Source of the DNA: Asparagopsis taxiformis
Lineage: Eukaryota > Rhodophyta > Florideophyceae > Bonnemaisoniales > Bonnemaisoniaceae
Reading direction: 5' to 3'
NCBI GenBank assembly: GCA_030407315.1
Contig: JALQPE010001972.1
Span: 1-64,000, forward strand
DNA length: 64,000 bases
The notes under the pieces were generated by a model, which worked only from the letters and a program-made list of their open reading frames with translations, had not been told where the DNA came from and ran no database searches. The stretch's first letter is position 1; each line of letters starts with the position of its first letter. A program made the position numbers and the translations under genes. Below, piece after piece: positions 9,775 through 53,523 of the stretch.

Positions 9775-9818
9775 CGGGTGGGCCGACTCCTCCCCACTCA
9801 ACGGACACGCGACGCGCG

Positions 9819-27108: not shown

Positions 27109-27860
27109 AGAATATTCCATGGAAAATGCCGTATTGTACAGTAGAACTAGTCACCATATTTTAGCGGAACGCCCATCCCCAAGGTTTGGATAAGGCCCAT
27201 CGAAAAAAATGTAAAAAATCATGGGCTGAGACCAGCACGGCGATTTTGTTTTACAGTAGGCAGGAACCAGGCAGAACTATGGTGTGGCCGTGAGGTGATG
27301 GCTGAACCATGTACGGAAGGACACGTAGGGATGGAAATGAACCACGTCCATATATGAGCAGGACGGCGGGTTGACTAGAACGGGCCAAGTCACGCAGGCA
27401 CGGACTGTTGGAATGGAACCAGTACTGTATATGGGTATAGTTAGATATGGGGTGCACCGTGACTGCGATATGTGGTGGAAGGTGCAGAGCGATTCGTAGA
27501 AATAAACTATAAAATATAATGGGCACACCGTGACGGTCCGGTGTCTGAAACCAGGCGTAAGCAGCACTCGCTGAATGGACGGTGACCAAACTATAATTAT
27601 TGTATTCATTGGAACAATTCCAGAGTAGGTGACTTTTTGCTTATGGGACGTGACCAAGCTGACTTGTGGAACTGGCCAAACGATAATCTGGAAAGGGACC
27701 ATTGACTGGGCATGTACGGCCCAAGGCAAAGCGCGGTTAGTTTCCAAACTACAGTACTGTGTAAAGCCCGGATATATTCTATTATAACACCTGCTCGTGA
27801 CACTGGTATTATTCCACCGTGGAGCACTGTAATGGGTACGGTTCACTTCCACTGGATGTA

Positions 27861-27980
27861 GTGGTTGTACCGTCGGGTTGGCGTGGACCATGTTCACTGG
27901 GTAGAGTAGTTGTACCGTCGGGTGGGCGTGGACCATGTCCACTGGGTAGAGTGGTTGCACCGGTGGGCGCTCTGGGTAGA
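27861..27980. repeat. 45-bp tandem repeat
   Basis: Unit starts are at 27861, 27906 and 27951; the third copy is partial. The core is TTGTACCGTCGGGTGGGCG followed by TGGACCATGT. The period divides by three, which keeps a minus-strand frame open. Confidence 0.8.
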
Positions 27981-28324
27981 AACTGAAAGGTAGAATGGGC
28001 GGCACATCGCACTTTTGCGGAGAAACTGCAGGACGGATAGGTCTGACTGAAACGATATCTAGGTAGAATGGAAATCGGCATAGGGACGATGAATTAGACT
28101 AGGTTGCAGCCAGTGCCGGGTACGCAAGATTTACGATATGGTGTAGTGGATATGGAATAGGTAAATGGGCAGCTAACGCCAAAAGTTTAACGACATGAAG
28201 ATCATCTGTACACTGCACTACGGAACTATGAACTATGCCACCATGGCAGATACTAAACGGCAAAACACCAGCTCTACATAAAGTAACTACAAATACATAT
28301 AGGCATGAAAAGAGAGGTGAGGGG

Positions 28325-28560
28325 AAGCCAGAAATTTCTGTTGGCACCTGGAAGGAAAAGAATAGATGAATCAATGGTTAGTGCTAGGAATGTAATTTCA
28401 TCAACGCTAGAAGCATGACTAGAAGCGAGAGAACATACCGTTGATAGTGGAGCCAGAGCTTGAGTAAGCGGATTGTAGAGAACCCAGAAACTTCTGCTGG
28501 CACAGAGATGGAAAGAAGTGGATGACACAGTGGTTAGTGCTGGAAACGGTATGCCAAAAG
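28325..28560. repeat. Imperfect direct duplication, period about 153 bp
   Basis: The segment CCAGAAATTTCTGTTGGCAC...TGGTTAGTGCTAGGAA (28329-28393) recurs as CCAGAAACTTCTGCTGGCAC...TGGTTAGTGCTGGAA (28482-28545). Similarity is clear but not perfect, so the duplication is old. Confidence 0.7.
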
Positions 28561-28727
28561 CTCGATTAGAAGTGAGAAAACGTAGTAATGACAGTAGCCC
28601 TGGAGAAAGACGAAACAGAAAGTAGGAAAGGCAGAAAAGTATGTTAGCAGAAGAACAACGAAGAACCGCAGAAAAAGACAATGGGAGGAATGGCTAAAAG
28701 ACTAAATGAGCTGGAAAACCTTATCGT

Positions 28728-28797
28728 AGGATGGAGGCGGCGGGGCACAATCACATCCGCAGGGATGTGGTTGCACTCCGCCGCCCCATCCTGCGTA
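28728..28797. repeat. GC-rich inverted repeat
   Basis: AGGATGGAGGCGGCGGGGC and its reverse complement (GCCGCCCCATCCT) flank CACATCC/GGATGTG arms with a GCAG loop. The result is a near-perfect hairpin of about 70 bases. Confidence 0.7.
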
Positions 28798-28961
28798 GGT
28801 GGTGTGCTCCATGCGACAGGCGATGACGATGGCGCTTAGCGTGACGCAAGCCTTAAATACTGCTGCAGAGTGAGCCCAGAGGTCGCGTATTTCACTTGCG
28901 TAGTGAGAAAGCGCGCGCTTTTCGTACTGACAAATCAGAAACAAATCATCGATGATCTATG

Positions 28962-29050
28962 AACACGTCATGGACACGTCATGGACTCGAGATGGACTCG
29001 TCATGAAAACGTAATGAAATAGAACACTAGGTAGTGTTCTATTTCATTAC
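28962..29050. repeat. GACTCGTCATG micro-repeats and 40-bp palindrome
   Basis: Four to five copies of a 10-12 base unit (ACACGTCATGG, ACTCGAGATGG, ACTCGTCATG) run from 28962 to 29005. A palindrome follows at 29011-29050: arms GTAATGAAATAGAACACTA and its reverse complement around a central GG. This is the first strong symmetric structure left of the transposase gene and may be a terminal or regulatory site. Confidence 0.7.
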
Positions 29051-29137
29051 AGCTGGTGTGGAGCTGCACGCGTGTGAGCGGAAACGTGTATTGCAGGCTG
29101 AGGAGCCAATGATGAAAAATTAGAAAAAAATGACTAG

Positions 29138-29199
29138 TTACTGCAGTAAAAAGTGATCTAGGAAGATGCATTTGGTAGATCAGTTTTTACTGCAGTAAA
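29138..29199. repeat. Hairpin repeat H1 (short form)
   Basis: TTACTGCAGTAAAAAGTGATC and its reverse-complement arm flank a 16-18 base loop. It has the same core as H2-H8 but lacks the outer AAATTTGGTAATTTTT arms. It lies 294 bases past the stop of the transposase gene. Confidence 0.8.
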
Positions 29200-29492
29200 A
29201 GAAACCTAATTTTACTTTAATTTTATTGTGGTACGTTCCGCCCTGAGGATGCTGGTTCATGCTTGAGGCAGTTCAAGGAAAGGATAAGCTCTGGAAGAAG
29301 CATGAATGGTATAGACGAGGAATTAGAGATGGTTACATAGAATAGAACATAGTGTCTCACAGGTTTTGGGACAAGGGACATAAGTATGGCCAATGTCAAG
29401 GTGGATGTATGTGACGGAAACGCTACAATATGAGGAAGTTTGTTTACGGGAAGTAATATGGTAGAAAAGCTTATGTACTAGACCCTAGAGTA

Positions 29493-32400
29493 TCATGCAG
29501 TCCTTGGCGGATATCCATCTGCTCTTGCAAAAATAGAGAAGGAACCACCATCCATAAACGAAGGACCTCCATGCGTAATTCCTCCATTCGAAGTGCCTTG
29601 CTCCACAGAACATAATGAAGGGCTACAATTGTGGAGGAGACCAACCTTACGAACCCCTGAAGTGAGAGGGAGAAACCAGGAGCCGGAATCGGTGTTCGGA
29701 GCAAACGTAGTGGGGGAGGACTTCTGCTTGATAACTGGAAGAACAGTAGCGTGTGGTGGAGACAGGTTTTCCTGGTGAGATTCGTCTATGCAAACGTTTC
29801 CAGGTGAAGCAATGTTTCCATCAATAGTCAGGTCAAATACAGTGGTAACAGCCCAAAAAGAAGGTGAACAGGTCTTCTGTAGAATTCTAGAAGACGGGGA
29901 AGCTGAGTAGCAAGCTTGTACTACACAGCCAGAAGCTATTTCTTGTGGCTTTGAAAAGTCCCGAGACGCAGCAGAGGGCGAAGCTGCAAAGGCAGGGTGG
30001 GCAGAACTGAGACGTGCTCCCTTGCAAGGTTTTCCACGAAGCATGACTGCATCCGAATTCTGCCCACAGGAAAAATCCTGCTGTGGTAATGAAGAGGGAA
30101 CTCCTGTCCACGAGTAATATGAATATGGAGAAGAGAAGAATGGTAAAGAAGACCTATTCAAATGTTCGAGAAGGGGTTCTTGACAGAGGTCATGCAGCGT
30201 ACTAGCCGGGAGGTTCTCCATGGATTTACAGTGCTCCCGTCCGAATAGAACACGAAGGAGAAACCGTTTAGAACGTTGTCTCTCCACAGATGCTGGAGTA
30301 GAATTGGAGAAACTTTTCAAAGCAAGATGGAGGCTTCCTTTCCAATAGTTTCCGAGTGCCGCTAACATAGCATCCAACTGTCTGTCAGCACCTCCGGAAT
30401 GCTCTAGACCTCGTTTCATTTGTTGATGTGTTGCTTCGAATGATAGCTCAGCTACCTGGCGAGCGTGTCCGAGCAGAGGAACAGTGTGTTCAAATGCCTC
30501 AATGAGACGGTGCAAGTTTGGCTTATTGTCAAGAATCTTCCTTGCCCGGAATCCAGCAGTCTTGTTTTCCATCTCAATGTGGTCATTATCATTCGTTACT
30601 ATACCTTCTGTCTGCATCTTCCGTTTCTTCGAGACCGCTGTGCTCCGCTGTCTGGTAGGAACAGTCTTGAGCAGGTCATCCACTAGAGTAGCATATTCTT
30701 TCGATAGCTGCTGCAGACGACGGAGACTGTTGTGCGCAGAATTCCCTGTAGCTCTCTGTACTGCCTCAGAACCGTCGATATTTTTTCGTGGTAGGAAGTA
30801 TGTAGCTGCAGATATAGAGGACAGGAGACGAACAAGTTCGAGAGACAGATGGCGTTGCTCTTCAGAAGCCTGGAGTGACCTTGAACCGCTACCTTCGGAT
30901 GACCTTGTAGTCTGCGATTGGAATTTCAGAGAAGACCTGAAGCAGTGTTCGGCGACGAGGAGAACTGCAAATCTGTCCGAGATTCCCATTGTATGAGTTT
31001 CACCTGCGTTGAAGTTATATATCTTGTTCTGATTTGCGAGACCCAATACACGGAGGGCATCCACCATGAACCTGTCGGCCAGCCTTCTCACACCATCATT
31101 AGGCAAGCTTGAAAAAGCATTGTCCAGAGCATCCTTTGCCAGTCCGTGGAGGAGATGGTCAATTCCAACAAACGTCGAACGGTATGGGTCCAGAATAGCA
31201 GGCACGACAGGGATTCGTAGACCATCGTTTCCGAGTGGTGTCCCGGTTGGAACCAGCCCTTTGGACCTAGCTTCATGAAGTAGTCTTTCAATGAGATGCA
31301 ATGGAGTGTCTGTGATATTTTGCACTGTTCTCAAACCCAGATACTTCAAGATGTTTGCAGAACTTTCCGATGACTGAACAGCAGCTGTTCGCTCGGATGT
31401 GCGAAAGTGTGTATCAGAGCTCGAATGTAAACGGGTGTCGTAGCCAAACTGCGAGTTCTTCCCATATTTCCCCCCTCTTACAAAGAAACACAAATGGCAT
31501 GGGCAGTCTGCGTTGTGCCCCATGACATCCAGCACATGAGAACAGGCAGGATAATCCGATACGAAACCAATAAAGTCCAGGAAAATTAGACATTCATTGC
31601 CGTCTGGATCGACATCACGAAACCCCGACGTACATCCTTGAATAATGTCTCTAGAGATATGTCGAAGGATATGGTTTGTACTAACACCAGGACCTGTGAC
31701 ACCGATAACGCGCACAGCAGAACTGTTCCGGCGACAGTCCAGCGGAAGACCCATTGGGAGCATATAGCATCCTCCAGCACTCCCTTTCTTACCAGAGGCT
31801 TCATTGAAGTCATCGCAGTATAAAAGAAATGGATAGACGTAGTATGTGGTACCGCAGCTGAGAACCCCACGGAGATGTGTAGGATGAAAGGGGCTGGAGC
31901 TCGTGCCTGGTTTCAATAACTTGACATTATTGATTGCACGAGTTCCGCCGACAACTTTGTAATGCCCTTCAGAGTTGACGAGAAAGAGCAGTTTTTGTGA
32001 TGGGCCTGGCGGTCCGGGAGAGCTGACGACAAGCCCAATGAAGAACTGTATACCACAATTTTGAGTAGGGTTGCACTCAGGACTGGGTGATAAAACTGTC
32101 AGGTGATCACCCGGCCGAGCATATTCCCGGAACGACTCTTTCTGAAGGATGAAGGCGGACCCATATGAATGCGGGGAGACCGAAAGCCTGCTATGAAATG
32201 CGGCACCAGAGTTAATCCACGAAGAAGATGTGAGAGCTTTGAACGACTCATGGCTGGAAGATAGTGATTCCTGTTGGAAAAGGGAACTGAGAGTAGGATC
32301 TAGAGGAGAGGCGTGCCGCCCTGATATCACTCGAAGCTCCACAATACTACCCCCGAAAGCAGGAACCGGAGAGCCATCCTTATCCTCCTCTGCCCTCAGA

Positions 32401-33539
32401 GTATAGTTTTGTCCTTTCAAAGAGTACTCTCTGAATTTTCCTATCCTGGATGTACACACATTACCATGGAAACTTAGTAACTCATCCGAGTCGGAAGCAT
32501 CCAATTGTGTGTTATCACGCCACGCAAGGTCGAATATTTGTGGCGTAGTAATGTCTGCTCGTGCATATTCGCTTGGTGGAACGATAAGTACAGGTGCTGA
32601 TTGGCCTGTTGTTGCTCGTTCGACCCGGCTTCTTCGTAGAATTGCGGAGGAAGCTACACGGGCTGCACTGCGCTCTACGTTTACAGGAAAATAAACGGTT
32701 TCTGAACGCAACCATGCATTGTAGAATAGCCACGGTCTCACCTTACGCACTATTGTCGAATAATGAGGCAGACCTTGCTGAACATGTTTATTCGTTGAGC
32801 CTTTTCTCGCGAAATCGAACAAAACACGATCTTCCTGCAAGCTAGCGGCAGTACTTTTTGTGGAGCCTGTCAGCTTTGCGACAGTATACAGCGTAGTCCA
32901 TTGTGTCATGTAATTGCGAGCTTTGTCTGGATTGGACGTGTTCATGATAAAGGGAGAAGAGATTAGGAGCTTCGCTTCTGCCTCCTCCTGTAGTAGCAGG
33001 TCTTTATCATTCGACACGGTATCATGTTCTGAGAATACATCATCGGGTTCGTCAGAACTATCGTGATGGAATTCAGTAGGAACTGTCGCAACAGCAGAAG
33101 CAGGTTCACTCCTAGAAGGAAGTATCATATCACAATGGTCGGGAATGGTGGATAGGTTTTCAACTGCTGGAGGTGGCAGGGTGTTTCCCTCTTCGCTTTT
33201 GGCGTACTCCATAGAGACAGTGGTATCCATGGGTACCAGAGCAATAGAATGCAAGCTATTGTTCCCAGTTGTAGACGTATCCAGGACAGGGGAGGAAGGG
33301 GGTGTTGCATCTGGGAGCCGGTGGTTGATAGCATTTGGATTCTGGGGAATGTTCAAAGTGCTGTCATGGTCTATTTGTGGGGGAGGAAGAGGGTTTTGCA
33401 TTGGTCTCCAGCCCATGTGATGGACGGAGAAAGGGTCAGAAACTGTTCTGGTAGTCGAACGCCGAGCCCGATTACGACCAGGGTATACATTGTTGTATCG
33501 TAGTCGTAGGCCAGTCCTAGACTTTCTCGGTCTTGCCAT
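29493..33539 (-). CDS. Plavaka/CACTA-like DDE transposase
   Basis: A long uninterrupted frame; Met 33539 (MARPRKSRTG, with a basic AT-hook-like start) is the likely start, giving 1,348 residues, and an upstream in-frame Met lies at 33629. The N-terminal 250 residues are acidic and disordered. The core resembles EnSpm/CACTA and Plavaka transposases. YCDDFNEASGKKGS (near residue 574) has the first acidic residue. FLDFIGFVSDYPACSHVLDVMG then leads into a CPCHLC zinc-type pair (near 680). AELSFEATHQQMKR (near 1035) has the probable catalytic Glu. These enzymes cut and paste elements with inverted ends. Hairpin H1 lies beyond the stop and H2 upstream of the start, so the gene sits between two copies. 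The intact frame suggests recent activity. Superfamily by motif only. Confidence 0.75.
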   Translation of the reverse strand: MARPRKSRTGLRLRYNNVYPGRNRARRSTTRTVSDPFSVHHMGWRPMQNPLPPPQIDHDSTLNIPQNPNAINHRLPDATPPSSPVLDTSTTGNNSLHSIALVPMDTTVSMEYAKSEEGNTLPPPAVENLSTIPDHCDMILPSRSEPASAVATVPTEFHHDSSDEPDDVFSEHDTVSNDKDLLLQEEAEAKLLISSPFIMNTSNPDKARNYMTQWTTLYTVAKLTGSTKSTAASLQEDRVLFDFARKGSTNKHVQQGLPHYSTIVRKVRPWLFYNAWLRSETVYFPVNVERSAARVASSAILRRSRVERATTGQSAPVLIVPPSEYARADITTPQIFDLAWRDNTQLDASDSDELLSFHGNVCTSRIGKFREYSLKGQNYTLRAEEDKDGSPVPAFGGSIVELRVISGRHASPLDPTLSSLFQQESLSSSHESFKALTSSSWINSGAAFHSRLSVSPHSYGSAFILQKESFREYARPGDHLTVLSPSPECNPTQNCGIQFFIGLVVSSPGPPGPSQKLLFLVNSEGHYKVVGGTRAINNVKLLKPGTSSSPFHPTHLRGVLSCGTTYYVYPFLLYCDDFNEASGKKGSAGGCYMLPMGLPLDCRRNSSAVRVIGVTGPGVSTNHILRHISRDIIQGCTSGFRDVDPDGNECLIFLDFIGFVSDYPACSHVLDVMGHNADCPCHLCFFVRGGKYGKNSQFGYDTRLHSSSDTHFRTSERTAAVQSSESSANILKYLGLRTVQNITDTPLHLIERLLHEARSKGLVPTGTPLGNDGLRIPVVPAILDPYRSTFVGIDHLLHGLAKDALDNAFSSLPNDGVRRLADRFMVDALRVLGLANQNKIYNFNAGETHTMGISDRFAVLLVAEHCFRSSLKFQSQTTRSSEGSGSRSLQASEEQRHLSLELVRLLSSISAATYFLPRKNIDGSEAVQRATGNSAHNSLRRLQQLSKEYATLVDDLLKTVPTRQRSTAVSKKRKMQTEGIVTNDNDHIEMENKTAGFRARKILDNKPNLHRLIEAFEHTVPLLGHARQVAELSFEATHQQMKRGLEHSGGADRQLDAMLAALGNYWKGSLHLALKSFSNSTPASVERQRSKRFLLRVLFGREHCKSMENLPASTLHDLCQEPLLEHLNRSSLPFFSSPYSYYSWTGVPSSLPQQDFSCGQNSDAVMLRGKPCKGARLSSAHPAFAASPSAASRDFSKPQEIASGCVVQACYSASPSSRILQKTCSPSFWAVTTVFDLTIDGNIASPGNVCIDESHQENLSPPHATVLPVIKQKSSPTTFAPNTDSGSWFLPLTSGVRKVGLLHNCSPSLCSVEQGTSNGGITHGGPSFMDGGSFSIFARADGYPPRTA

Positions 33540-33754
33540 GTCTCGATGACAGACAATATGCAGGCTCTGATATGTGTGTGAGGGACCGCGTGTAGGCCTT
33601 GCTGTAGTGAGCATAGAAACGAAACACACAGATGTAAAGCTGTAGAAAGGGAGAACATGAATAAGTCGACCGTTACAGTCTAATAGTTTAACTATGACCT
33701 TGCTCAGTTGAACATACGACTATACTACCCATAAACAGAAATCATTCATGGAAC

Positions 33755-33894
33755 GGGAGATGTTGAAATTTGATAATTTTTTTCGCTCCGAAATTACTGC
33801 AGTAAAAAGTGATCTAGGTTGGTGCACTTTGCTAGATCACTTTTTACTGCAGTAATTTCGGAGTGAAAAAAATTACCAAATTTCAACATCTCCC
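33755..33894. repeat. Hairpin repeat H2
   Basis: An almost perfect 140-base palindrome with arms from GGGAGATGTTGAAATTTG through the ATTACTGCAGTAAAAAGTGATCTAG core; the loop is GTTGGTGCACTTTG-like. It lies about 215 bases upstream of the transposase start and may hold its promoter. It is preceded by CATGGAACGGGAGATGT, shared with H3. Confidence 0.9.
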
Positions 33895-34653
33895 TGAGCT
33901 TCCGGGCGCCGAACTTGGGCTTTTCCAACAACCTGCACCGGAATTAGCCCCATATGCAGCGCTTGAGTTCCCTGGGGCGCTCGGGACATCACCTCCTCGG
34001 AGGCTGTTATACACGCACGTTCACTTCCCAACCTTGGAGAGGAAGTTATGCGAGCACATTGAACGCGTTAACATCAAGGTGTATGCTGTACTTTGTACTC
34101 AGTGGGCATCATTTATCCTTTTCTGTAATCATAGTTGTAGGTTTAGTCGTATACGACTCTAATGTGTTATATCGAGAGGGGAAGGTACGTACAGGATAAT
34201 CTCAATAGGTCATTAGGAGTATTATTGTCATAGGACCCATTCCGCGGTATACTACATGTCTATATATAGATGATCTAGGAAGTGAAGTCGACGAGACAAA
34301 CTACCAGGTAAAATAGACCAAACTTCTTTAAAGCTTCACTTCATGTACCCTACGTATGGGATAGCCCCTATTTGGAAAGACTTGGATAGTGCATATTGCA
34401 TTCCAGCCGCAGCAGGAATTCAAAAGTCTTACACGTATGTTTAGTGGCTGCTATGTCTAGTCAGAATTCGGAATGGGTCGTTTACCTATGGGAATGTTGT
34501 ACAAACTAGTGATTTCAAAATAATGTTGTGCTCTGTGAAGTGCTGCAACATGACTAACTTTGTTGAAACAGTGATAGCTCAACCGTGCTTACGTGGCCAG
34601 GTTCCCTGGTTTGAGCACCTCTGTCAACGCGGTGTCCATGGAACGGGAGATGT
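33895..34653. other. Spacer between hairpins H2 and H3
   Basis: Mostly non-coding. A plus-strand frame to 34162 (99 codons, starting inside H2) reads protein-like over about 33900-34090 (GLFQQPAPELAPYAALEFPG). It may be the last exon or remnant of a lost gene. I recognise no family. The rest, 34163-34653, holds nothing that I can name. Confidence 0.3.
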
Positions 34654-34775
34654 AAAAAATTGGTAATTTTTTTCGCTCCGAAATTACTGCAGTAAAAAGT
34701 GATCTAGGTTGGTGCACTTTGCTAGATCGCTTTTTACTGCAGTAATTTCGGAGCGAAAAAAATTACCAAATTTTA
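34654..34775. repeat. Hairpin repeat H3
   Basis: The arms include TTGGTAATTTTTTTCGCTCCG and the ATTACTGCAGTAAAAAG core, closing at AAATTACCAAATTTT. One arm reads GTGATCTAG and the other CTAGATCGC, a single mismatch. It is closest to H2. Confidence 0.9.
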
Positions 34776-34999
34776 GGACCTCAACGCCAGGGGTCCAGCG
34801 CCCTTCGCGACTTGCGAAGGCACACTGGTTGCAACTAGTATACTACCATTCTTTACCTTGCCATGCACGAGAAGGGGAGAGGGCAGAGGACTATCAACGG
34901 AAGGAGATTCTGACAAACTACAAGTAGACTATAGGAATGTGGGAGAACATGGAAACAAGAGAAATATCAGTTTAGAGCATGTTATAGTTAATATGCTAT

Positions 35000-38791: not shown

Positions 38792-39047
38792 GAACAGTGC
38801 GTCTCGTAGGGGGAAGTCCTCGATCGGGATTGCTTTTCAGGTGCAGAAGAAGCAGAGAGAGTAGCAGATGAGTAGGAGCCGAGAAAGAAGAAGTGGATGG
38901 TCGTGTAAGGTATGCACTTGAAGGTTGTCCAAACAGGACCGTGGGACAGCGCAATATAACAACTAATGCGCATAATATCCGCCGGTTGCGTCCTAATCAA
39001 TCAGAACTCATATTGAACGGTCATGGAGAGAATGGAGGATGGGCATT

Positions 39048-39167
39048 AAATTTGGTAATTTTTTTCGCTCTGAAATTACTGCAGTAAAAAGTGATCTAGC
39101 TTTGTGCACTTAGGTAGATCACTTTTTACTGCAGTAATTTCAGAGCGAAAAAAATTTCCAAATTTTA
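39048..39167. repeat. Hairpin repeat H4
   Basis: Arms TTAAATTTGGTAATTTTTTT and its reverse complement with slight decay (AAATTTCC in place of AAATTACC). The core is ATTACTGCAGTAAAAAG with GTGATCTAG. It lies about 500 bases upstream of the ParB/dioxygenase gene. Confidence 0.9.
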
Positions 39168-39551
39168 AGCGCATCTTGAGCTGACCCGTGGCGCCTTTTC
39201 GGCGACTGCTCTAGCCTGCACTAAACGCGACCGTTGCTTCGATGATTTTATTGAGCAAAACAGAATGGCTTACGTTTACTTTCTACAATAAACGGTCTTT
39301 GACGCAGCTTGACTGTGTCTATCAAGTTGTATGCGTCACTGCCAATGTGCCCATTTCAGCTGGCTCAGAGTAATTCATCGAGTACGGACACGAAATACTG
39401 TTCTGTGTAACCAGCACCCTGTCAGGAGAAATGTTGAGAAGTAAATGTTTTCCCATCTTCCTTTACACCCTGTTCATAGAATTCAAATAAGTGTATGCGA
39501 GACAGGATGTAAATCCTTGCACAGGTCCCCTAAACGACGTAAAATACGAGC
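39168..39551 (+). pseudogene. Inverted duplicate of methyltransferase-SET gene end
   Basis: From about 39330 to 39440 the plus strand repeats the 3' end of the methyltransferase-SET gene (40414 to about 40510, minus strand). The frame reading VCVTANVPISAGSE is visible, followed by a stop mutation and a slipped FIEYGHE. The adjoining 39175-39325 matches, inverted, the spacer at 40000-40143. The piece is a by-product of rearrangement and encodes nothing intact. Confidence 0.7.
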
Positions 39552-39674
39552 GTAAAATTTGGTAATTTTTTTGGCTGTGAAATTACTGCAGTAAAAAGCG
39601 ATCTAGCTTGTGCACTTAGGTAGATCGCTTTTTACTGCAGTAATTTCAGAGCCAAAAAAATTACCAAATTTTAC
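39552..39674. repeat. Hairpin repeat H5
   Basis: Outer arms GTAAAATTTGGTAATTTTTT and AAATTACCAAATTTTAC; core TTACTGCAGTAAAAAGCGATC. The complete 123-base sequence appears identical, in reverse orientation, to H6. Confidence 0.9.
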
Positions 39675-39965
39675 AGTCTAGCTTGTGGCGCCTGTGGCAC
39701 TTGCCTTGCACATCTCCCCTCATACCGCGGACCAATACCCTCTGTTTCGGGCATCTCAACCATCGGAACGGAAGCCAGCGAGCAATGCAATGTAGTTGTT
39801 CCTCTACTTTTCCATCGCTATATTCACCCGGATGTACATGAACTAATCTAAATGCACCGTATGGTAATGCACGAAGCATGACCACGAATACATGTTCTGG
39901 TCTGTCCCTCCCTTAGTGGAGCTACTTGCGCTTGCGAGCAAACAATCGTGACACCCACAAGGTGT
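39675..39965 (-). pseudogene. Fragment resembling the dioxygenase C-terminus
   Basis: A short minus-strand stretch reads RPEHVFVVMLRALPYGAFRL and then VHVHPGEYSDG. It resembles the last strand of the dioxygenase at 35.2 kb (HDFVKTRLSNTGMPYGHHIR) in the H-x-F-V, PYG and R-x-H positions. No iron-ligand region is present. It may be the tail of a third, diverged copy. The similarity is short, so the call is tentative. Confidence 0.35.
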
Positions 39966-40143
39966 GGTACAGAACCATCATACACAGTCGAGCTGCGTCA
40001 AAGACCGTTTATTGTAGAAAGTAAACGTAAGCCATACCATTTTGCTTAATGACATCATTGAAGCAACGGTCGTGTTGAGTGCAGACTAGAGCTCAGACTA
40101 GAGCAGTCGCCGAAAAGGCACCACAGGCGCCACAAGCTATACT

Positions 40144-40266
40144 GTAAAATTTGGTAATTTTTTTGGCTCTGAAATTACTGCAGTAAAAAGCGATCTACCT
40201 AAGTGCACAAGCTAGATCGCTTTTTACTGCAGTAATTTCACAGCCAAAAAAATTACCAAATTTTAC
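40144..40266. repeat. Hairpin repeat H6
   Basis: The reverse complement of H5, apparently identical over its length. It begins about 150 bases beyond the stop codon of the methyltransferase-SET gene. Confidence 0.9.
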
Positions 40267-40413
40267 GCTCGTATTTTACGTCGTTTAGGGGACCTGTGCA
40301 AGGATTTCCCTCCTGGCTCACATACACGTACTTGAACTACAATTCTATGAACAGAGTTTAAAGGAAGATGGGAAAACATTTACTTCTCAACATTTCTCCA
40401 GACAGGGTACTGG

Positions 40414-43400
40414 TTATACGGAAAAGTATTCGTGTCCGTACTCGATGAATAACTCTGAGCCAGCTGAAATGGGCACATTGGCAGTGACGCATACAACTTG
40501 ATAGGTTGATACAGAGGTCTCATCAAGAACTTCTTGTATGGGGGAAGAGAAACTAACATTAGCAGAACGCGACGGACGCTCAGTTCCCTCCGCTGGGTCC
40601 ACAAACGTTGGGTCGTTGATTTTCGATGCCGCACAATACTCGAATGGAACAATGAAGATTGGACTTGCAGACGTGGATGGCATCAGACATTTCACATTTG
40701 CATCCTTAATTTGAACAGCGTACTTCTGGAAACGCTCAATCGAGAAGGAAGTAGGTCCAGTACCGAAAGTCTTCAACTTCGCCTTGTACAAATCCTTGTA
40801 AACCACAGACCCGAAATAGTACCCTACGATATCTCCAGGATCAATATCCACTCTTGCAAACAGACCGTCACCAGCCGAAGGAATCGTTGACGCTGCGACG
40901 TATACATTGTGTGCCATCGCGTCTATTGACAGCAGGGTTTTAATATCCACGGTAGACAACAAACCCAGCAGCGATTGTGGCCACTTATCAATGGGTTGGT
41001 CTGTCAACTCCTTGTGCTGGTCCGGAATGCACCAGATGCCAGTAAGAAAGCTGATGAGGTGGGGCGGAAGTTTGGTTGAAATGGGCACTTTTGAGGTTGT
41101 CTTCAATGATGAACTCTCTTCCGAAGTTCCCAGACGAGCAGAAGCCAGCTGCTGTAGGGCAGTCGTGGACTGCTGGGCAAAGTTCCCAATAGAGACCTGG
41201 TGGAGAAATGCGACGTTGACTCTAGGAAGAGACAGTTCGTAGCAATCCTTGAACTTCTCACACCCGACAAACCTCCTGTACTGACCATGGTGCATTGTCA
41301 GGCATGCAACAGCAGTGGAGAAAGTTCCAGCAAACATGTCAACAACCAGGTCGCCCTGGTTTGAGAAACGCCCAATGAGCTCTTGCATGAGAGCGACGGT
41401 CTTCTGCTCGGGGCGCAACGTAACCTTCTTCTTGTCCTTGTCCATATATTTCACCGTCTCCGACGCAGTGATCCGCGGGATGTTGTCGATGACATTTGTC
41501 CAAGCCTTGAATCTAGAAGGTATGTATCCGGCATTTCGGTAATTAACCATCCCCCAGCCTTCTCTCCCCTTGCCGAGCTTGGTGGCATGTACGACCAACT
41601 CCACCATATTCAACAAACTTGTCGTGATACGATACGGGGGGATGTGAAATGTGTCGGACTCCGAGTACACACAATAGGCTGCGAATCAACGGCAAACATA
41701 GGATAGCCGGCAGAGTACTTCACTTTGCGGAGCTCGTAAACCCAATTGTAGAACAGAGCAGCAGATGTGAATATGAGAACATGACCACCCTTGCGCGTCA
41801 CCTTGGAAATTTCAGCTACCGTGTCTTCGATTTCTTCCTGACGGAGGACATCGTAACCAGAGTTTCCTCTGCCGGACATACGCCTAGTATTGTACGGCGG
41901 GTCAGTGAGGACCAACTGAGCACCTTCCCGGATTTGCGGCTTACCAGGATTGTCAACGGCGTCGTAGTTTTTCAGAAGGTCTCGGAAACTACAGTTGAAT
42001 GTATGTAGGAAACATCCTTTCATGTCCTCCAGTTCCGCAGGAATTAACACTTCCTCTTCGACCCGCATGGAGTTCACATCAGCTTCGTTTGGACCGGTGC
42101 TGCTGCTAGCCGGGTTAGCCCCTGAGCTTGCTGCACCGATCGTACTGACCTCTAGACGCCTACGCTTATTCGGGTTCGCGGCCACGGCTTCCGACACCTG
42201 TCGGGTTACCGAAGATTCCCGCACTGGAGAAGCTGTCGTCTCCATTTCTCTGAACAGCTCCTCATTTGGGTCGGGCGTTGATTGCGGCTCTTCTGTGAGG
42301 CTGAACGCTGTGAGCTGCCTTTCCACCATCGCCAGTGCCGGAATAGTCGTGAACCTCCCGGAAACCGGGGAACCGGGGGACGGCTGGAAGCTCTGTATGA
42401 ACGGTATATCTTGCGGAGCCGAGACAGATAGGTCGAACAATTTGTCATTGCGACATATTGCCATTAAGTGTTCCCAGAATGACTTTGCACAGAGGCGCAT
42501 CTGAGCGTCTTGCAGCAGCGTACGATGGACAGCAGCACTTGAAATGCTTGCCGAGTGTTGCACTCTTCGAACAGCTCCTCTGCCATGCAACAAGGTCTTC
42601 AGCTCTCGAAGCGGTGAAAAGCCCCTATTTTCCGAGTCCAGGACGTGGTACGTAAACAGTCTCTGGTCGTAAAGAAGGTAAGGTTGTAGGAGCTCTTCTG
42701 CACCGCCTGACCCCAAGGATTTTGCCAACTCATCCCATGCTGCCAGAACCTGATGAACCCCATATCCCAGACGCTGTGCCGTAAAAGGACTGTCCTTTTT
42801 GATTAGCGCTGTCAATCTAGCCGCAGACCTGGTTCTTGTCCGTTGTCGTGGGCGCGTTTCTACTCGCAACTTCCAGTCTCGATCCATCTGAATCAATCCC
42901 ATGAGAAATACAACTTTCCGGAAAGACGGGGAATATCTTGGAGTTGCCCAGTTACCATGATCTGTAGCCCTTTCCTGAACGTGTGAAACAAAGAATTGAC
43001 AAGCCAGAGTTTGCCTGGAGTACGCATCTCGTCCAATAGCTGTCCTTTCCTGTGTGTTATGGTTTTGGTATTCATAGAACACTGGACCTGAGGGACGAGG
43101 ACTCTGGGAGGTTTTCGTTGAAATTTCTACACCCCTTGGCTCATCACGCTCATTGATGTACACCGGAATAAAGAACGATACCGACAAATCCTGCATCCCA
43201 CAGCTGGTAAGAAACAGATCCCATACTCTAGTATCAAGCTCTGTATTGCCATCATCACCAGTACTCGTGAAGTTCCGCACTGATTGCACAATGTTAAACG
43301 TGTGGCGGTGGTACGCATATGAAAACCACCTGTCAACGATTACGATGGCTTCTAGAGATGGTAGATTGAATCTGTACAGACTGCCCACAGCCCTTCGGAA

Positions 43401-43898
43401 CGCTGAGAGTGAACGTTCTTCGAGTGGAACGTTATCTTCGTCCTTCTCTCTATTATGCCAGCAGTCCCGCATGTAAGCTACAATTGACACACTTTCGTAG
43501 AACGGAATTGTCCTTTCGCTCTCCAGAATGTGATACAGAATCAAGGCAAGCGTATGCGGTTTCGTGGAAATAGACTCATAGCACATGCGGAGTAAATACC
43601 TTGAAGTCTTGGTTCGGGGGCGTGACAATACCTCTTCGCACACGTCCATACCTCCAACCAGGGTAACGTCCCCGTTTTCCGCTATGGTACCGTACAGATA
43701 GAGAGCATCGAAGTTTAGGTGCGTTCCGCGGGGAATATCAGAGGCAGGAGTGGCAGCCCCTTCAATCGCTGGAATTGAAACAACGCGCGCCGGATCCACC
43801 CAGAGAATTGTTCCGTCTCCGTACAAATCATGCGGTTCTGTTGGTCCATTTTCGCTGCGTGTTACGACGAGCCCATGTCGCCGTCGTACTTCCGCCAT
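40414..43898 (-). CDS. Beta-class DNA amino-methyltransferase fused to a SET domain
   Basis: Likely start Met 43898 (MAEVRRRHG; an upstream in-frame Met lies at 44009). About 600 N-terminal residues have no family that I recognise, with a basic NKRRRLEVS segment. The methyltransferase has motif IV LVLTDPPYNTRR (41880-41915) before motif I DLVVDMFAGTFSTA (near 41340). This IV-then-I order defines the beta class of N6-adenine/N4-cytosine enzymes. The frame shifts once at a GTGTGTAC run near 41660-41675, where no intron fits. The second part runs on to a C-terminal SET-like domain (about 40915-40420): GDGLFARVDIDPGDIVGYYFG, a KINDP/SANVSF pair in place of the usual NHS motif, and SAGSELFIEYGHEYF. 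Predicted: a nuclear enzyme that methylates DNA and perhaps a protein lysine. A split or damaged gene cannot be excluded. Confidence 0.75.
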
Positions 43899-44255
43899 TA
43901 CTTGTGAGGTGAAGAGAAAAGGGAGAGCAGGGAGAATGGAAAAAGATGAGTGGGGAAAGTTTTCGACGATCAAAGGGCGGACTGGAAGTCCACGCCCTCC
44001 AAAGTCCACGCGGCGCCAATAAATTCGAAATCGGAAATTCTGGAACCGACACGCCGCCGATATCTCGCGAGGGGACGTGAGGATGGCGACAGAAGCCAGA
44101 GTTGTATTGCAGGGATTAGAGTAGGGGTTTGTACTAGTTTGGAAGGGGTGCGTAAGTCGCTTGCACTCTGTGCCAGTAAACTAACTTCAACGAGCGCGAA
44201 TGGCAAGGAGATAGTAGAGAAATAATAGTAGCAAGACTCGTTCTCGATTCACAAT

Positions 44256-44373
44256 TGAAATTTGGTAATTTTTTTCGCTCTGAAATTACTGCAGTAAAAA
44301 GTGATCTAGCAAAGTGCACTTGGCTAGATCACTTTTTGCTGCAGTAATTTCAGAATGAAAAATTTCCAAATTT
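44256..44373. repeat. Hairpin repeat H7
   Basis: Arms AAATTTGGTAATTTTTTTCG and a decayed partner (AATGAAAAATTTCCAAATTT). One core arm has CTTTTTGCTGCAG instead of CTTTTTACTGCAG. It lies about 360 bases upstream of the methyltransferase-SET start. Confidence 0.9.
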
Positions 44374-44917
44374 AAAGCACCGCTCTAATCGTTCATGCTT
44401 TATTCCAGAACTAACCAACTGAAACGTCTGACTAGTTTATGGAACGATAATCATCAGATTCTTCTTTTACGAATAAATCTTGCTGGGAATTCCTAGTTTT
44501 GGATATCGATCGTTAAACTAGTCTAGACTTTTAACTAACTTCGCGGACGTCCTACGATACATTCCAGCGCATGATGATGGCGTCGTACTGCTGTTCAGCA
44601 TGCTGACAAGTGCACTAGTGTGTAAAATTGCGCAATGTTATACATGTGTGCTGCAGAGTAAGGGGGCTATCACTTGCTCTGCTTATTGCACTCTGCGCAT
44701 ATTGGAATGCACAGAGCAAAAAAGTTAGCTTTGCTGTCGTTAACATTGCGGGGCACCAATGTGCTCTGCTACGTACAAATTCCCGGTCGTGTATTACCAA
44801 AGTATACGGCCGAAAAGCTCACCGAGTTTCCCAGTGCCGCACCTTCACAGTCTCTGAGCAGAATAAGCGGTGGTAAAATACTACGTCATGTATTGTTGGC
44901 CGTCATGGTTTGTACAG
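44374..44917. other. Spacer between hairpins H7 and H8
   Basis: No gene is supported. Two overlapping frames of about 80 codons (44628-44931) show no motif. The composition is like that of the spacer between H2 and H3. Confidence 0.3.
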
Positions 44918-45040
44918 TTGAAATTTGGTAATTTTTACGGCCTGAAATTACTGCAGTAAAAAGCGATCTAGCAAAGTGCACAATGGTAGATCGCTTTTTA
45001 CTGCAGCAATTTCAGACCATAAAAATTACCAAATTTCAAC
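44918..45040. repeat. Hairpin repeat H8
   Basis: Outer arms GTTGAAATTTGGTAATTTTT and AAATTACCAAATTTCAAC, with core TTACTGCAGTAAAAAGCGATC. A single base differs in one arm (CTGCAGCAATTTC). It stands 230 bases before the start of the next gene. Confidence 0.9.
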
Positions 45041-45269
45041 TCGAGCCTACATTGCTGGTTTCACTGCTTCTCAGTATGCCGAGGACCGTTACAGCCCTCA
45101 TATTTCGTAACGGCACTACCATTGCACTTGTCCGTTACATGATTGGTCTGCTTACGACAGACATTTCCCTCGAGTCTTTCTATTTATCTTTCCCGTTGGA
45201 TAATCAATTTGCTCGTGCACCTCAATTCTCCTCTCCCGGACGTGGAACATCCCATCATTTCGAGCTGAA

Positions 45270-46951
45270 ATGCGAGATGAATTATCATTGTCAAGGTTTG
45301 CAAAGTTTGAGGAACAGTTTGCATCCCTCGAACAGTATATGCGCGACTCCCTTTCGTCCATTGAAATGGAGCTTGCTTGCATTCGGTACATGACCTCGGC
45401 TGCTGCAGGGACAAACACTGTACCTTCAGTAGTTCTCGAGGAGAGATCAAGAAGATCAGGTCAAATTACCACTCTAGTGTCCTCTTTGTTCAACAATAGG
45501 CATGTGACATCTAGATTCGTCGCTTTCCGAACCGTTGCAGAGCTTACCAAAACTTCAGTGGATCCCAGTTTGTTCAGGAACTTGAATGCAAGGTCTGACG
45601 AAACCGCGCAAGTGAAGTCCTGTACAACATTGCTACTTGCTGCATTGTCGTTTTCGCAGACTTCCAGTTCTAATGCAGAGGTAAGACAATCCAAGAAATC
45701 TCTAATTGGCACTGCGGTTGGGAAACGGCATATATTCTTAAAACGCTCTATTGTCGGAACAGCATTTATTTCGATGGCGAATGACAGAATTGTACGATGG
45801 AAGGACTCGGCCACCAGGAATGCCGGCATCCTGGACCCCGGCGAAGAAGAGGACTTGAACAGCAATACTATCTCGAGAGATTATGCACTACGGAATGCAA
45901 CAATTGTGCCCATCGATAAACCATCTTGGCTGCACATTTCGCAGCGCGCTCTTTTGCATGCTATGGATATTTCGATGCCCACGGAGGCGGAACGCAACAT
46001 AGAACAGACCACGAGTTTGCAGGTTGGATCTTCGAAGCGTCGGCGACTGTCTGGTTCAAAAGGAGAAGCACGCCGTGCATCTACGTCCTCCTCTTCGTCT
46101 TCCGCTATGCCCAACCTGTCACCGTCTGATATACAATCCATTCCGATCATTACCTCTGCTCTACGGCAGCTCACCCAGTTCTTCAACAGTTCCCGTAAGC
46201 AAATGAAAATGGAATTGGTCAAGCAAGCATTCTTCCTCATCCACCGAGATATGAAGGCAACTATTGCTGTTCCACTCGACTCTGATGTGTCAACGTCGGA
46301 CATGTGTCCACCTGACTCGATTCCGACAACGTCGAAAGCTTACGGAACAGGAGAAGACGCTCTGAAAGTGTATTCAAAAATGATTCCATCTTCTCAAATT
46401 TCATTCTCAGCCGTCCCGAGCTCCACGTTCAGGTTACTTACAAAGTTCAGGTAAGCGGCGGTATCGGTAATGGAAACATTACAACTGCGCAGAATCCGGT
46501 GGAGAAATTGGCTGTATGTTCATTCTCTTTTCTTACTTTAGCTATGATATTGTTATGCAGTTTCTGTCAATGCACACAACTGGAGATGCTTTGTCATGAG
46601 CCCCATGCCATTCAAGCTTGTTATCAGATAGCAATATGTCTCCAAGGTTTATTCAATGCGGCCCTCAGCAAGTTACCTACACCTCAATTCGGGAAAGATG
46701 GATTCCCTTTGCGAGTTGCATGGGGGCATCTAGAGCTGCGGGACTACCTCATGGGAGGTGATTGCCTGTTCGGAATCATCAGAAAGAAGAGAAATCTCAC
46801 TGCTGAAGAATATGAGTCTGTACGTTTCGATTCAAGCATCGTACAAACCGAACTTTCCTTTGAAAACACGGCAGACAGGCGCGTTTCCAATCCTGATTGC
46901 GTCCCTCTACAGGAGGATGACGAGCTTGGTATTTCTCTAATTGATGTGTAG
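45270..46951 (+). CDS. Two-exon gene of unknown family (523 aa)
   Basis: Exon 1 is 45270-46450 and exon 2 46561-46951. The 110-bp intron has a GTAAGC donor and TATGCAG acceptor and joins the frames at phase 2. The start at 45270 is the first Met after an in-frame stop at 45201. The N-terminus is a short coiled coil (FAKFEEQFASLEQYMRDSL). A mixed helical region, a basic patch (SSKRRRLSGSKGEARR, a likely nuclear signal) and a serine-rich linker follow. The C-terminal part, including a cysteine-rich exon-2 start and RVAWGHLELRDYLMGG, may fold separately. I recognise no domain. Its place beside hairpin H8 and between the methyltransferase-SET and Tudor-like genes suggests it belongs to the same cluster. 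The next gene converges on it, 275 bases away. Confidence 0.65.
46451..46560 (+). other. Spliceosomal intron, 110 bp
   Basis: GTAAGC donor, TATGCAG acceptor and a CTTAC branch-like site about 25 bases before the acceptor. Of the nearby AG sites, this acceptor keeps the second exon open to 46951, whereas the earlier TTTAG at 46541 gives an early stop. Confidence 0.65.
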
Positions 46952-47225
46952 TACTGCTTTGATTAGAAACTTTATATCGGTATGGTTCATTAGTAGTTCT
47001 AGGAAAAGTCCCAACGCTCAACTAGTTCTGCTTTGCAATGCATGCATCATCTGCATTAAAGTATTTCTGATTCATCCAACTGCTGGCATCATTTAATGTA
47101 CTCCTCTGCCTTTTTCTCTGACGCACTATACCCTACCACGTCGTTCACTACATCTTCTGTTATCAACTTGTCTATACGACAAGGTTCTTCCACACCACGG
47201 AATACGACGTACGGCATATGAACTC

Positions 47226-48782
47226 TCAGAGATCCCCACAGTACATCCCCGCCTTTCCTCGCTTTCTTTGCATCGCAGGCTCCCATTCTATACGGAAACA
47301 TTTCTTTCCTTCGCTTTTCCACCCTTCCAGACTCCCTTCACCGTCGCTCCTCCCGTGCACATCACATGTCAAAGGACATTTCTGCAGCTCCATTCCGTGC
47401 ACGTATTCACCTTGGACCACAGCACTACTTTTTCGAATTAGACACCACACGTTTGATGTTGTTTCCGCACTGCAGAATGAGCTACTGCCAATTGCAACAG
47501 ATGTCGACTGTGCTTCCATCATTCCCGAGCACAATATCGTACCAAACAACCGCAAACCACATGACCTCGCCGAACCGTTCATGTAACTACACTCTTCATT
47601 GTCCTCCACTTCCGAGTTGCTGATGTTACGCCTTTGAACCAGACACTCGGTTCGCCATCGGTGCCCCAATCCTAGCAGATCTGATAGTGTTGCAAAACTG
47701 GAACACGTAATGTTCAAAGCTTCCCCACCAGTTCCAGCTACTGCCGCGTGAAGCCCTGGGTACACTTTGTAATACCCCCCTCCATAGATTTCTGCTGTTC
47801 CCTTTAGCATTTCCCGGAATAACTCAGTGCTCAATGAGATGGGAATCTGCACCGGTCCGCTAATAGCCGTTCCACTTGTACATGCACCGTCAATCTCACT
47901 ATGTGGGTAGCCGCCACCTGAGTTTGACAAAGTGCTTCGATTAACCTGTTCCACAACTTTCTCTACCGCACGCTGTAAGAGCATCAATAAAACCTTACCA
48001 GCTGATACTGTTGATCCACAATTTCGAACCATTCCGCTCCAACCAAGCCGACACTCGCTACCATTTCCAGAAAGCATTATATTTTCTAGTGTTCTCAGCC
48101 TTGTCTCCATACTACCGTATGTGTTGGCGTCAAGTGCTGATTCCACTTTTTGCTTCTTCCTATGCGGTGATATCGCTTCAGATTCTCCATCTGATTGTTC
48201 ATGAAATTCTACTCCCACCGCTTCGTAGTCCACAACCTCTCTGTTGCTCCTTCGCCACTGTGTCGGTGGCTGACCCCCGGACATTAACTTACTTCCCATC
48301 AGAAATTTTACATGTTCGTAGGAAACACAAGGGTAATTCCTTTCAGGGATAGCATCATATAACAATCTGCCTTCCGCAACCACCATTTCATCGTGCCTTG
48401 GCTTCACAGCATCCGAGTACCGCCACTTTGATACTTCCATCACTGCAATATCCTTTTCCTCCGTCGTCAACCTCACAATTGCATCACCCACATCCTGTCC
48501 ATTGTGCTCCACCACACCAGGCGTGTACACGCCATCTCCTCTGTCTACATCGATGCGGTCTCCCACTGACGGCTTACCACTGCAGACAGGATACTGCTCA
48601 GGAAGTTTGATTTCCACAACAGTAGCCTTCCACCATATTGCGTCATCACCCACTTGGAACCATACGTCTATTTGCGAGCCGACACAGGGAAGTGCATCTA
48701 CGGCCGCTGCTCGCTCACGCTCACGGCCAGCTTTCGCTTTTTCGCTCTGTCGCCTAATTCGCAATGATTCACGCCTAGTCAT
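47226..48782 (-). CDS. Tudor/Agenet-like reader protein (518 aa)
   Basis: An open frame from Met 48782 (MTRRESLRIRRQSEKAKAG), with a basic first helix. Residues 33-145 look like two small barrels of the Tudor/Agenet type. The first has DVWFQVGDDAIWWKATVVEI and the second GDRIDVDRGDGVYTPGVVEH, the usual W-x-A and D-G-x-x-x-x-G-x-V patterns. In plants and animals such barrels bind methylated lysine or arginine. A basic patch follows (SPHRKKQKVES, nuclear-signal-like), then a short coiled coil. The remaining 300 residues, rich in Gly, Ser and Cys, have no family that I know. The gene converges on the two-exon gene. Domain assignment is by eye; the order of genes supports a chromatin role. Confidence 0.55.
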   Translation of the reverse strand: MTRRESLRIRRQSEKAKAGRERERAAAVDALPCVGSQIDVWFQVGDDAIWWKATVVEIKLPEQYPVCSGKPSVGDRIDVDRGDGVYTPGVVEHNGQDVGDAIVRLTTEEKDIAVMEVSKWRYSDAVKPRHDEMVVAEGRLLYDAIPERNYPCVSYEHVKFLMGSKLMSGGQPPTQWRRSNREVVDYEAVGVEFHEQSDGESEAISPHRKKQKVESALDANTYGSMETRLRTLENIMLSGNGSECRLGWSGMVRNCGSTVSAGKVLLMLLQRAVEKVVEQVNRSTLSNSGGGYPHSEIDGACTSGTAISGPVQIPISLSTELFREMLKGTAEIYGGGYYKVYPGLHAAVAGTGGEALNITCSSFATLSDLLGLGHRWRTECLVQRRNISNSEVEDNEECSYMNGSARSCGLRLFGTILCSGMMEAQSTSVAIGSSSFCSAETTSNVWCLIRKSSAVVQGEYVHGMELQKCPLTCDVHGRSDGEGSLEGWKSEGKKCFRIEWEPAMQRKRGKAGMYCGDL

Positions 48783-49769
48783 AGTTGCTCCACAAAATAA
48801 AGATACTACAACGCACTATCTGCAATTTTGTTTAGGACAAGTCTTCGTCGACTTCTTCACTAGATACTACTTCACCCATGTCTGTAACGTCCAATTTTTT
48901 CATTTTTATAGTATGATACGAAATCACTACCTTGTTCCCTACTGCCATACAAGTTGTCAAACACTCTACTACTGCGTTCAAGATACTAGTCACGCTTAAA
49001 GCCAGGCCGGAACTCACTATTCAGGTCAATCTTGTGTATGCAGGAGTGACTTTATTACAAAATTTAGCGACTTTGATAATAACTATGCTGTAGTATCTGT
49101 GCTAAAAATCTACATAGATGGTGCCATTCTTTACTAAGTAATACTAGAAAAACTAAACTCAAGTACAATTATCTACTCTTTCGACCGTACCCTACCTATG
49201 GTACAACAATGGCCATATCGAGATTAGCTAGTTAACGTCATACACTCTGCATTTCGCCTCTTCCATATGATATATTATTCCTCATGGACGCCCAAAACGT
49301 GACGCTATCGAAGGGTATGGCGCGTTGGAACAGTCAGTACCAGTCCATCACTCTAGCCTCACTACACTGCTACGAATGCCATCTGTACTACAGACCGGCG
49401 TAACCATCCAAGTTCATGGTTCGAGTCCAACATGGTACTGTCACACATATGGTTCCCTCGTTTCGTCATTCCAGCATGGAAATTATAAAAATCGTGGAAT
49501 ATGCCACCTCCGGTCACTGTCATGACCAACGCGACGTGTCCTTGTCCTTTCCATTGTTATTTTTCCGTACAGTACTGGAAAATTCCACCATGTCACGGTG
49601 ATTATACCCACTCCCACGGCGCAGTTTCATTCCACTATATTCTTTACGGTATTTCCACTACTTATCTATGGCACGGCGCCGGTAATTTCTGGGATTTTTT
49701 GATGGTTTGTCATTCCACTAATTTCTAATGGTCCAGACCATGAAATTTGCTGGTTTTTCAAAAAATTGC
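48783..49769. other. Non-coding right flank of the chromatin gene cluster
   Basis: A 61-codon minus-strand frame at 48832-49017 is the only short candidate and has no support. From about 49290 to 49740 the sequence carries repeated words (GGAAATTATAAA, ACCATGTCACGGTG, TTCCACTA), read in reverse, like those of 27.2-27.6 kb. It ends beside the antisense Gypsy gene and may contain the right end of the large element. Confidence 0.35.
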
Positions 49770-53506: not shown

Positions 53507-53523
53507 GGGAGGGGGCTCCGGCT

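Follow-up and report, generated by a model that had tools for sequence, protein, structure and literature searches.

A five-gene CACTA-like DNA transposon in the red alga Asparagopsis taxiformis carries putative DNA- and chromatin-modifying enzymes and may manage its own epigenetic state

We analysed a window of 64,000 nucleotides from the red alga Asparagopsis taxiformis (contig JALQPE010001972.1 of assembly GCA_030407315.1), in which an earlier model-made annotation, here called the original prediction, had proposed a giant transposon with its own toolkit for modifying DNA and chromatin. Comparison of copies across the host genome indicates that this gene cluster is one DNA transposon, spanning window positions 27089–49779 (22,691 bp), and not several elements landed together. 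The whole is, in our judgement, probably best explained by a five-gene transposon of the CACTA/EnSpm-Mirage-Chapaev-Transib (CMC) group that gives itself its own chromatin state, in which it would stay expressible or resist silencing that is not based on 5-methylcytosine (5mC). The unit, its ends, target duplications, empty sites, subfamilies, gene order and selection are read from sequence, and the roles of the enzymes are what we infer. Epigenetic marks are usually placed on transposons, whereas this multicopy transposon itself carries genes, under purifying selection, for apparent marking enzymes. The element is laid out as follows.

27089..49779, plus strand: whole transposon copy, with 14-bp inverted ends where homology among copies ends, as in the copy C1986
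27089..27102, plus strand: left terminal inverted repeat CACAGGATAAGCAA, from the inverted match and the 225 genome occurrences of the 14-mer
49766..49779, minus strand: right terminal inverted repeat, from the inverted match and the read ends of copies
27103..29120, plus strand: left subterminal non-coding region, with short words common to the right end in inverted orientation
48821..49765, minus strand: right subterminal non-coding region, with short words common to the left end, inverted
29493..33719, minus strand: transposase, CACTA/Plavaka-like, a 1,408-codon open frame, from the frame, its relatives and a 10-sequence alignment
35000..38836, minus strand: ParB-like, Cys-rich and 2-oxoglutarate (2OG) dioxygenase-like protein, from motifs
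40414..44180, minus strand: class-beta amino-methyltransferase (DPPYN)-SET fusion, from Pfam; frame broken near 41.63 kb in the window copy
45204..46951, plus strand: nuclear-looking protein of unknown family (the 45.2-kb gene), 565–584 codons in open copies, broken in the window copy
47226..48815, minus strand: Tudor/Agenet-like protein, from a weak motif; last codons lost in the window copy

An edge-to-edge search gave one perfect 14-bp inverted match, CACAGGATAAGCAA, between the two edges. Taken alone, this match lies in the range of chance (best scores of 12–14 in 10 shuffles), and it was the genome search that settled the ends. The 14-mer occurs 225 times in the 141.5-Mb host assembly, where about one occurrence is expected, while its reversed control occurs 0 times. 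Of the best 40 matches to the left 412 bases (219 candidates), 38 start at base 1 and the remaining two, located at contig starts, at base 2; when the right 400 bases serve as query, all of the best 40 of 193 candidates reach the last base. At 34 ends read directly, the sequence inside the repeat is alike and the sequence outside is unlike, except in contig pairs resembling two versions of one locus. The right end was not found in two more fetched stretches, C1956 and C405. The edges had originally been set at 27109 and 49769, which is nearly right. The inner 1–2 kb of the subterminal regions share 65 8-mers in inverted orientation, against at most 55 in 100 shuffles; the shared 9- and 10-mers no more than equal the maximum of the shuffles.

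Eight distinct insertions were read at both ends, namely the window copy, C1986, C86, C635, C1000, C1844, C348 and the C98/C384 locus. Six of them have a 2-bp target duplication (TC in C1986 and C635, TG in C86, C1000 and C1844, CC in C348), and at least six matches in eight would arise by chance with a probability of about 1.5e-6. C1000, C635 and C98/C384 measure 26–38 kb from end to end and likely hold further insertions inside. The joined flanks of the six insertions with target duplications were searched against the genome, and uninterrupted homologous sites were obtained for three: C1986 (two places, 98–99%), C635 (one place, 99%) and C86, whose empty site, a high-copy repeat, takes up 37 of the best 40 rows. 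For the other three insertions no empty site is present among the best 40 of 1,398 candidates. The target duplications and the empty sites, the latter as indirect evidence, show that the element inserted as one unit, and the single mobile unit first proposed is borne out by ends shared across the genome.

Four full copies, representing three subfamilies, were read: the window copy, C1986 (22,752 bp, 99.3% identical to the window copy over 22.7 kb), C134 (22,098 bp, its left end being the first base of the contig) and C348 (21,174 bp). The genome-wide search for the same gene order, suggested at the outset as a check, found it in all four: transposase, ParB/2OG, methyltransferase-SET, 45.2-kb gene and Tudor-like gene. 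C134 has both middle genes inverted in place, and C348 the methyltransferase-SET gene alone. By these comparisons there are at least three subfamilies in the host genome, and they look mosaic, with left parts exchanged. C134 and the window copy are 92.5% alike over the left 6.5 kb, 76–80% in the two middle genes and 85% in the right part.

The original prediction had named syntenic, single-copy orthologues in related species as evidence against a mobile unit; in the host genome the genes are multicopy, not single-copy. There are at least 53 matches of the methyltransferase-SET gene (of these 53, 42 reach at least 97% identity and 9 stand at 74%), at least 100 of the 45.2-kb gene and at least 83 of the Tudor-like gene, together with at least 52 scored stretches for ParB/2OG and at least 34 for the transposase (33 of the 34 rows entering its tally); these counts are lower bounds, and some matches may be two assembled versions of one locus. 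Among the 53 methyltransferase matches listed, the 45.2-kb gene lies within 6 kb of 37 (29 of them with the geometry of the window copy and 8 turned), the Tudor-like gene within 9 kb of 29, and ParB/2OG within 8 kb of 19 (geometries of 15 and 4). The 45.2-kb and Tudor-like genes form 59 pairs within 5 kb (59 of 100 and 59 of 82 listed matches), in a single geometry throughout. This linkage count used 36 of the 52 ParB/2OG rows, second pieces of the gene being left out, and 82 of the 83 Tudor-like rows. Misses are expected with lists of best matches and broken contigs, so they are no counter-evidence. Protein searches, with about 8,000 scored candidates each, gave at least one relative of ParB/2OG, at least four of the methyltransferase and at least nine of the transposase; some of these are the host genome's own copies, one being 99.7% identical to the C134 gene.

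The long open frames lie where they were first placed, but the description of them as mostly open holds only in part. Compared with other copies, the window copy has breaks in the methyltransferase-SET frame at about 41.63 kb (a short run of C) and in the 45.2-kb gene at about 46.4 kb, and its Tudor-like gene lacks the last codons. An intron at the methyltransferase break was considered and discarded, as relatives read through there in one frame. All five frames are open in two of the four full copies read. The ratio of nonsynonymous to synonymous substitution (dN/dS) was estimated by the Nei-Gojobori method between subfamilies, in 21 comparisons (one counted twice) without a significance test. 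It is 0.16–0.20 for ParB/2OG, 0.09–0.23 for methyltransferase-SET, 0.13–0.15 for the 45.2-kb gene, 0.25–0.26 for the Tudor-like gene and 0.17–0.18 for the transposase, the outliers being one low-divergence (recent) transposase pair at 0.44 and one near-identical ParB/2OG pair at 0.36. Because the ratio is low across subfamilies, all five genes look to be under purifying selection and kept for function.

Both domains of the methyltransferase-SET protein, as expected from the original prediction, exceed their Pfam cut-offs. In frame 40417-41685 (minus strand), N6_N4_Mtase (PF01555) scores 41.3 bits (cut-off 26.7) and SET (PF00856) 26.5 bits (cut-off 22.4); the two are also above cut-off in three of three long relatives, where SET scores 25.9, 23.6 and 22.6 bits. 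DPPYN lies ahead of an FxG-type motif for binding S-adenosylmethionine, which is the permuted beta order, and the closest solved structures by sequence are DpnA (methyltransferase) and SETD7 (SET). According to the accessible part of PMC8885841, DPPY occurs in bacterial N6-adenine enzymes and SPPY in most bacterial N4-cytosine enzymes, and the DPPY-bearing enzyme here would probably make N6-methyladenine.

For the ParB-like/2OG and Tudor/Agenet-like proteins, the motifs that had been reported were seen, but no Pfam match rises above cut-off. The ParB-like region has a conserved GLHRR motif, with ParBc_2 at E 0.14 on a cropped piece, below cut-off. In the 2OG-like region, the H, D, H and R of HxD..H..R, the triad that accompanies a double-stranded beta-helix fold in 2OG-Fe(II) dioxygenases, are invariant in four aligned sequences; nothing in this protein exceeds a Pfam cut-off, and Tet_JBP is absent at E up to 10 in whole proteins and in the cropped piece. 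The pattern is kept also in a distant relative at window 4889-5701, which has a PGSH stretch that we take to be of the kind found in PhyH-type enzymes. Agenet reaches E 0.17 on a cropped piece of the Tudor-like protein, below cut-off, and the whole protein has no Pfam match; the 45.2-kb protein has no credible one. The window transposase likewise lacks any Pfam match, including PF18759 (Plavaka), which appears in one of the seven relatives scanned at 12.2 bits and E 0.1, below its cut-off of 26.3. Transposases of the CMC/CMCT group are DDE enzymes with C(2)C and H(3-4)H motifs. An alignment of 10 transposase sequences has several invariant D residues, C-x2-C and a late E and H; H(3-4)H was not located.

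The hairpin family said to separate the genes proved real, with 15 arm matches in the window, all within 29134-45013, and 0 in each of 100 shuffles. The gene gaps hold near-perfect palindromes of about 120–145 bp, seven in the window copy and a short eighth. Scanning for palindromes gave seven within the element and none in the remaining 41 kb of the window, nor in any of 20 shuffles. The palindromes and an inverted duplication (all unstranded) are located as follows.

29134..29201: short palindrome copy on the 3' side of the transposase gene
33747..33894: palindrome on the 5' side of the transposase gene
34637..34782: palindrome on the 3' side of the ParB/2OG gene
39029..39175: palindrome on the 5' side of the ParB/2OG gene
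39319..40504: inverted duplication with arms at 39319-39697 and 40121-40504, 94% alike
39552..39674: palindrome within the inverted duplication that lies between the ParB/2OG and methyltransferase-SET genes
40144..40266: palindrome on the 3' side of the methyltransferase-SET gene
44239..44384: palindrome on the 5' side of the methyltransferase-SET gene
44901..45046: palindrome on the 5' side of the 45.2-kb gene

The inverted duplication includes 25 codons from the SET domain's end and is present in C1986 too. The palindrome arm motif has 638 exact genome matches; 96 of the first 100 listed, on 16 of 18 contigs, were judged by eye to lie on contigs with element genes or ends, and the palindromes appear mostly restricted to the element. 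In most gaps, most arms carry a version specific to the subfamily, such as CTCGAG in C348 against CTGCAG in the other copies, or AAAAACTGATC in C134 and C348 against AAAAAGTGATC or AAAAAGCGATC in the window, while single arms of C134 palindromes deviate from the subfamily version. Despite the sequence change, 39 to 50 of 50 bases of arm pairing are kept, and the gaps change together. Such concerted change would fit either sites that a protein of the element recognises or recombination that homogenises them. That gene cassettes actively flip between the palindromes was considered and rejected, as the 8 turned methyltransferase matches among 37 all belong, compared by eye, to the 74%-identity subfamily; the flips look fixed per subfamily, not ongoing.

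We classify the element, from its termini and target sites, as a cut-and-paste DNA transposon of the CMC group with five genes and a length of roughly 22 kb, Plavaka-like and not filed as Plavaka. The CMC/CMCT group has 5'-CA..TG-3' terminal inverted repeats and target duplications of 2–5 bp, and both are found here, in the CACAGGATAAGCAA ends and in the 2-bp duplications of six insertions in eight. Plavaka termini are 5'-TGT..ACA-3' (A) or 5'-CATCA..TGATG-3' (B) in the accessible part of PMC12730594, whereas this element ends in CACAG..CTGTG. Because it has neither the PF18759 domain nor Plavaka termini, it was placed in the wider CMC group.

Known systems resemble the element in parts, as far as the accessible portions of the sources describe them. 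Enlarged CACTA elements with 4–5 frames in a red alga (Chondrus), as cited in PMC6431247, share the size class, the CACTA-like transposase group and the several open frames; the citing description, on which this comparison is based, mentions no methyltransferase-SET fusion or palindromes. The TET/JBP transposons of fungi, including PlavakaB (PMC12730594), are likewise CMC-group transposons, with a dioxygenase where the element here has a 2OG-like protein and with a proposed escape from silencing, and 2-bp target duplications occur in Plavaka as well. The element here differs from them in having no Tet_JBP match, 5'-CACAG ends, five genes and an amino-methyltransferase-SET protein. In Amoebidium, Plavaka giant repeats (PMC11244446) are also intron-poor gene clusters of giant size tied to a Plavaka transposase, but they encode tyrosine recombinases and are located in heavily methylated DNA, whereas the five proteins here have no Pfam recombinase match and no C5-methyltransferase was detected in the host. 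In Phytophthora, HarbingerS and MuDR elements with SET genes, cited in PMC12730594, are DNA transposons carrying a SET methyltransferase too, but of another transposase superfamily, and that source's accessible part does not mention a fused DNA methyltransferase. In the bdelloid N4CMT (PMC8885841), a permuted N6_N4 methyltransferase of bacterial type is joined to a chromatin domain, and the hosts lack C5-methyltransferases; N4CMT bears SPPY and a chromodomain and is encoded by the host, whose transposons it marks, whereas here we find DPPY, SET and a transposon gene. No transposon with a methyltransferase-SET fusion was found in a literature search that covered titles and abstract openings, most subscription papers and Repbase Reports being outside its coverage. 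CACTA-like elements of giant size are already known, as are single captured epigenetic enzymes (for the latter, PMC12730594 and PMC8885841), and the present combination looks new.

In the mechanism that we propose, the transposase would act on the 14-bp ends and the subterminal words. The methyltransferase-SET fusion would put an amino-methyl mark, probably N6-methyladenine, on element DNA and would also methylate a nearby chromatin protein, and the Tudor-like protein would read such marks. The ParB-like/2OG-like protein would recognise element DNA, perhaps the palindromes, and remove or limit the marks. Jointly, these proteins could give the element its own chromatin state and keep it expressible or resistant to host silencing of a kind not based on 5mC; self-marking or silencing resistance is the functional role we infer from the predicted domains. 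For TET-bearing fungal elements the idea is escape from 5mC (PMC12730594, accessible part). Here that purpose is unlikely because no C5-cytosine methyltransferase (DNA_methylase) was detected in a six-frame search of the 141.5-Mb host assembly, which could miss an intron-split gene; the same search was positive in 10 of 14 control genomes. The host also gave one Chitin_synth_1 match. A closer model may come from bdelloids, where an amino-methyl mark on DNA is paired with histone methylation (PMC8885841, accessible part); here the pairing would be in the hands of a parasite. A bolder version, which we hold to be rather doubtful, is a self-contained epigenetic regime, in which an adenine mark and a histone mark are coupled in one polypeptide, a ParB-like partner targets the element's palindromes, and the parasite builds, erases and inherits a chromatin domain without host 5mC; palindromes and proteins would then co-evolve, with no cross-marking between subfamilies. 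If the enzymes work, nature would offer here a testable example of a genomic parasite that writes its own marks and, perhaps, manages its own epigenetic state. The near-identical copies, empty sites and subfamily-specific palindromes make it answerable what is marked, where and by whom.

Several observations weigh against our reading. The target duplication is absent at the window copy (AC/AT) and at the C98/C384 locus; possible explanations for the window copy are recombination between copies and an assembly joint. The linkage of methyltransferase and Tudor-like genes occurs in three geometries (23, 5 and 1 of 29 linked), and 4 of the 21 dN/dS comparisons are saturated at silent sites. The SET scores barely exceed the cut-off, and a clear NHxC, the canonical SET motif, was not found in the domain. 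The ParB, 2OG and Tudor assignments are at motif level, and two AlphaFold predictions for the 2OG-like region gave no usable fold (predicted local distance difference test, pLDDT, of 28.7 and 30.0). The broken 856-codon methyltransferase frame of the window copy is common to 22 of 27 near-full-length matches, and therefore the methyltransferase-SET protein is not needed in cis for copies to spread.

This amplification of copies with a broken frame could also be taken to mean that the accessory genes are passengers without a role, kept by hitch-hiking alone, but we consider this quite improbable with dN/dS well below 1 for every gene across subfamilies. A stronger competitor, although itself on the unlikely side, is one transposon in which the methyltransferase-SET and ParB/2OG proteins serve transposition rather than counter silencing: they would mark or recognise DNA of the element, at its ends or palindromes, for discrimination of self from host DNA, licensing of replication or blocking of repeated cutting. 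It would agree with the palindrome versions that track subfamily and with a host in which no C5-methyltransferase was detected to escape from, and the pairing of a DNA methyltransferase with a neighbouring ParB-like protein is reminiscent of DNA modification in phages and plasmids; both the SET domain and the Tudor-like protein, however, point beyond DNA to chromatin.

That several unrelated elements landed side by side, the alternative named in the original prediction, has almost no remaining probability in our view. The missing target duplication of the window copy, its differing flanks (Gypsy gag/protease on the left, a frame of unknown kind on the right) and a region rich in repeats would suit it, but the same order and termini in all four full copies read, the common ends genome-wide and the empty sites speak against it. 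A remnant of a large DNA virus or virus-like element is very improbable as well. Giant viruses have intron-poor genes and hairpins between genes, as here; on the other side stand the 2-bp target duplications, the CMC-like transposase and Pfam scans of the five proteins without any capsid, polymerase or packaging family. Viral contigs gave no relative of the ParB/2OG or methyltransferase-SET protein, the two proteins searched there, and no palindrome motif, which also counts against a viral origin. Bacterial and archaeal genome contigs gave no relative of the methyltransferase-SET protein, the one of the five searched there.

Around the window copy, frames 25595-27108 and 49770-51356 run into the element's two ends. 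The left edge does abut a Gypsy gene, as was claimed, but the piece there is gag/protease by Pfam and not the truncated pol described. The gene at the right edge, for which a Gypsy link was claimed, is frame 49773-51356 (minus strand), which gave no Pfam match. Two Gypsy pol genes with chromodomains, about 47–49% alike, lie at window 9657-14053 and 53449-58092, a third integrase-like fragment at 62677-63840 (minus strand), and a DDE_Tnp_1_7 remnant (Pfam: Transposase IS4) at 21399-22076 (minus strand). A second 2OG-like gene, split over two frames, is found outside the element at window 3195-5701, with 32–40% identity to the element's ParB/2OG protein over about 105 residues; it is perhaps part of another mobile element. 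A repeat family (window 259-7397) occurs on both sides of this gene, for example at 720-1436 and 5969-6683, which are in direct orientation and 89% alike.

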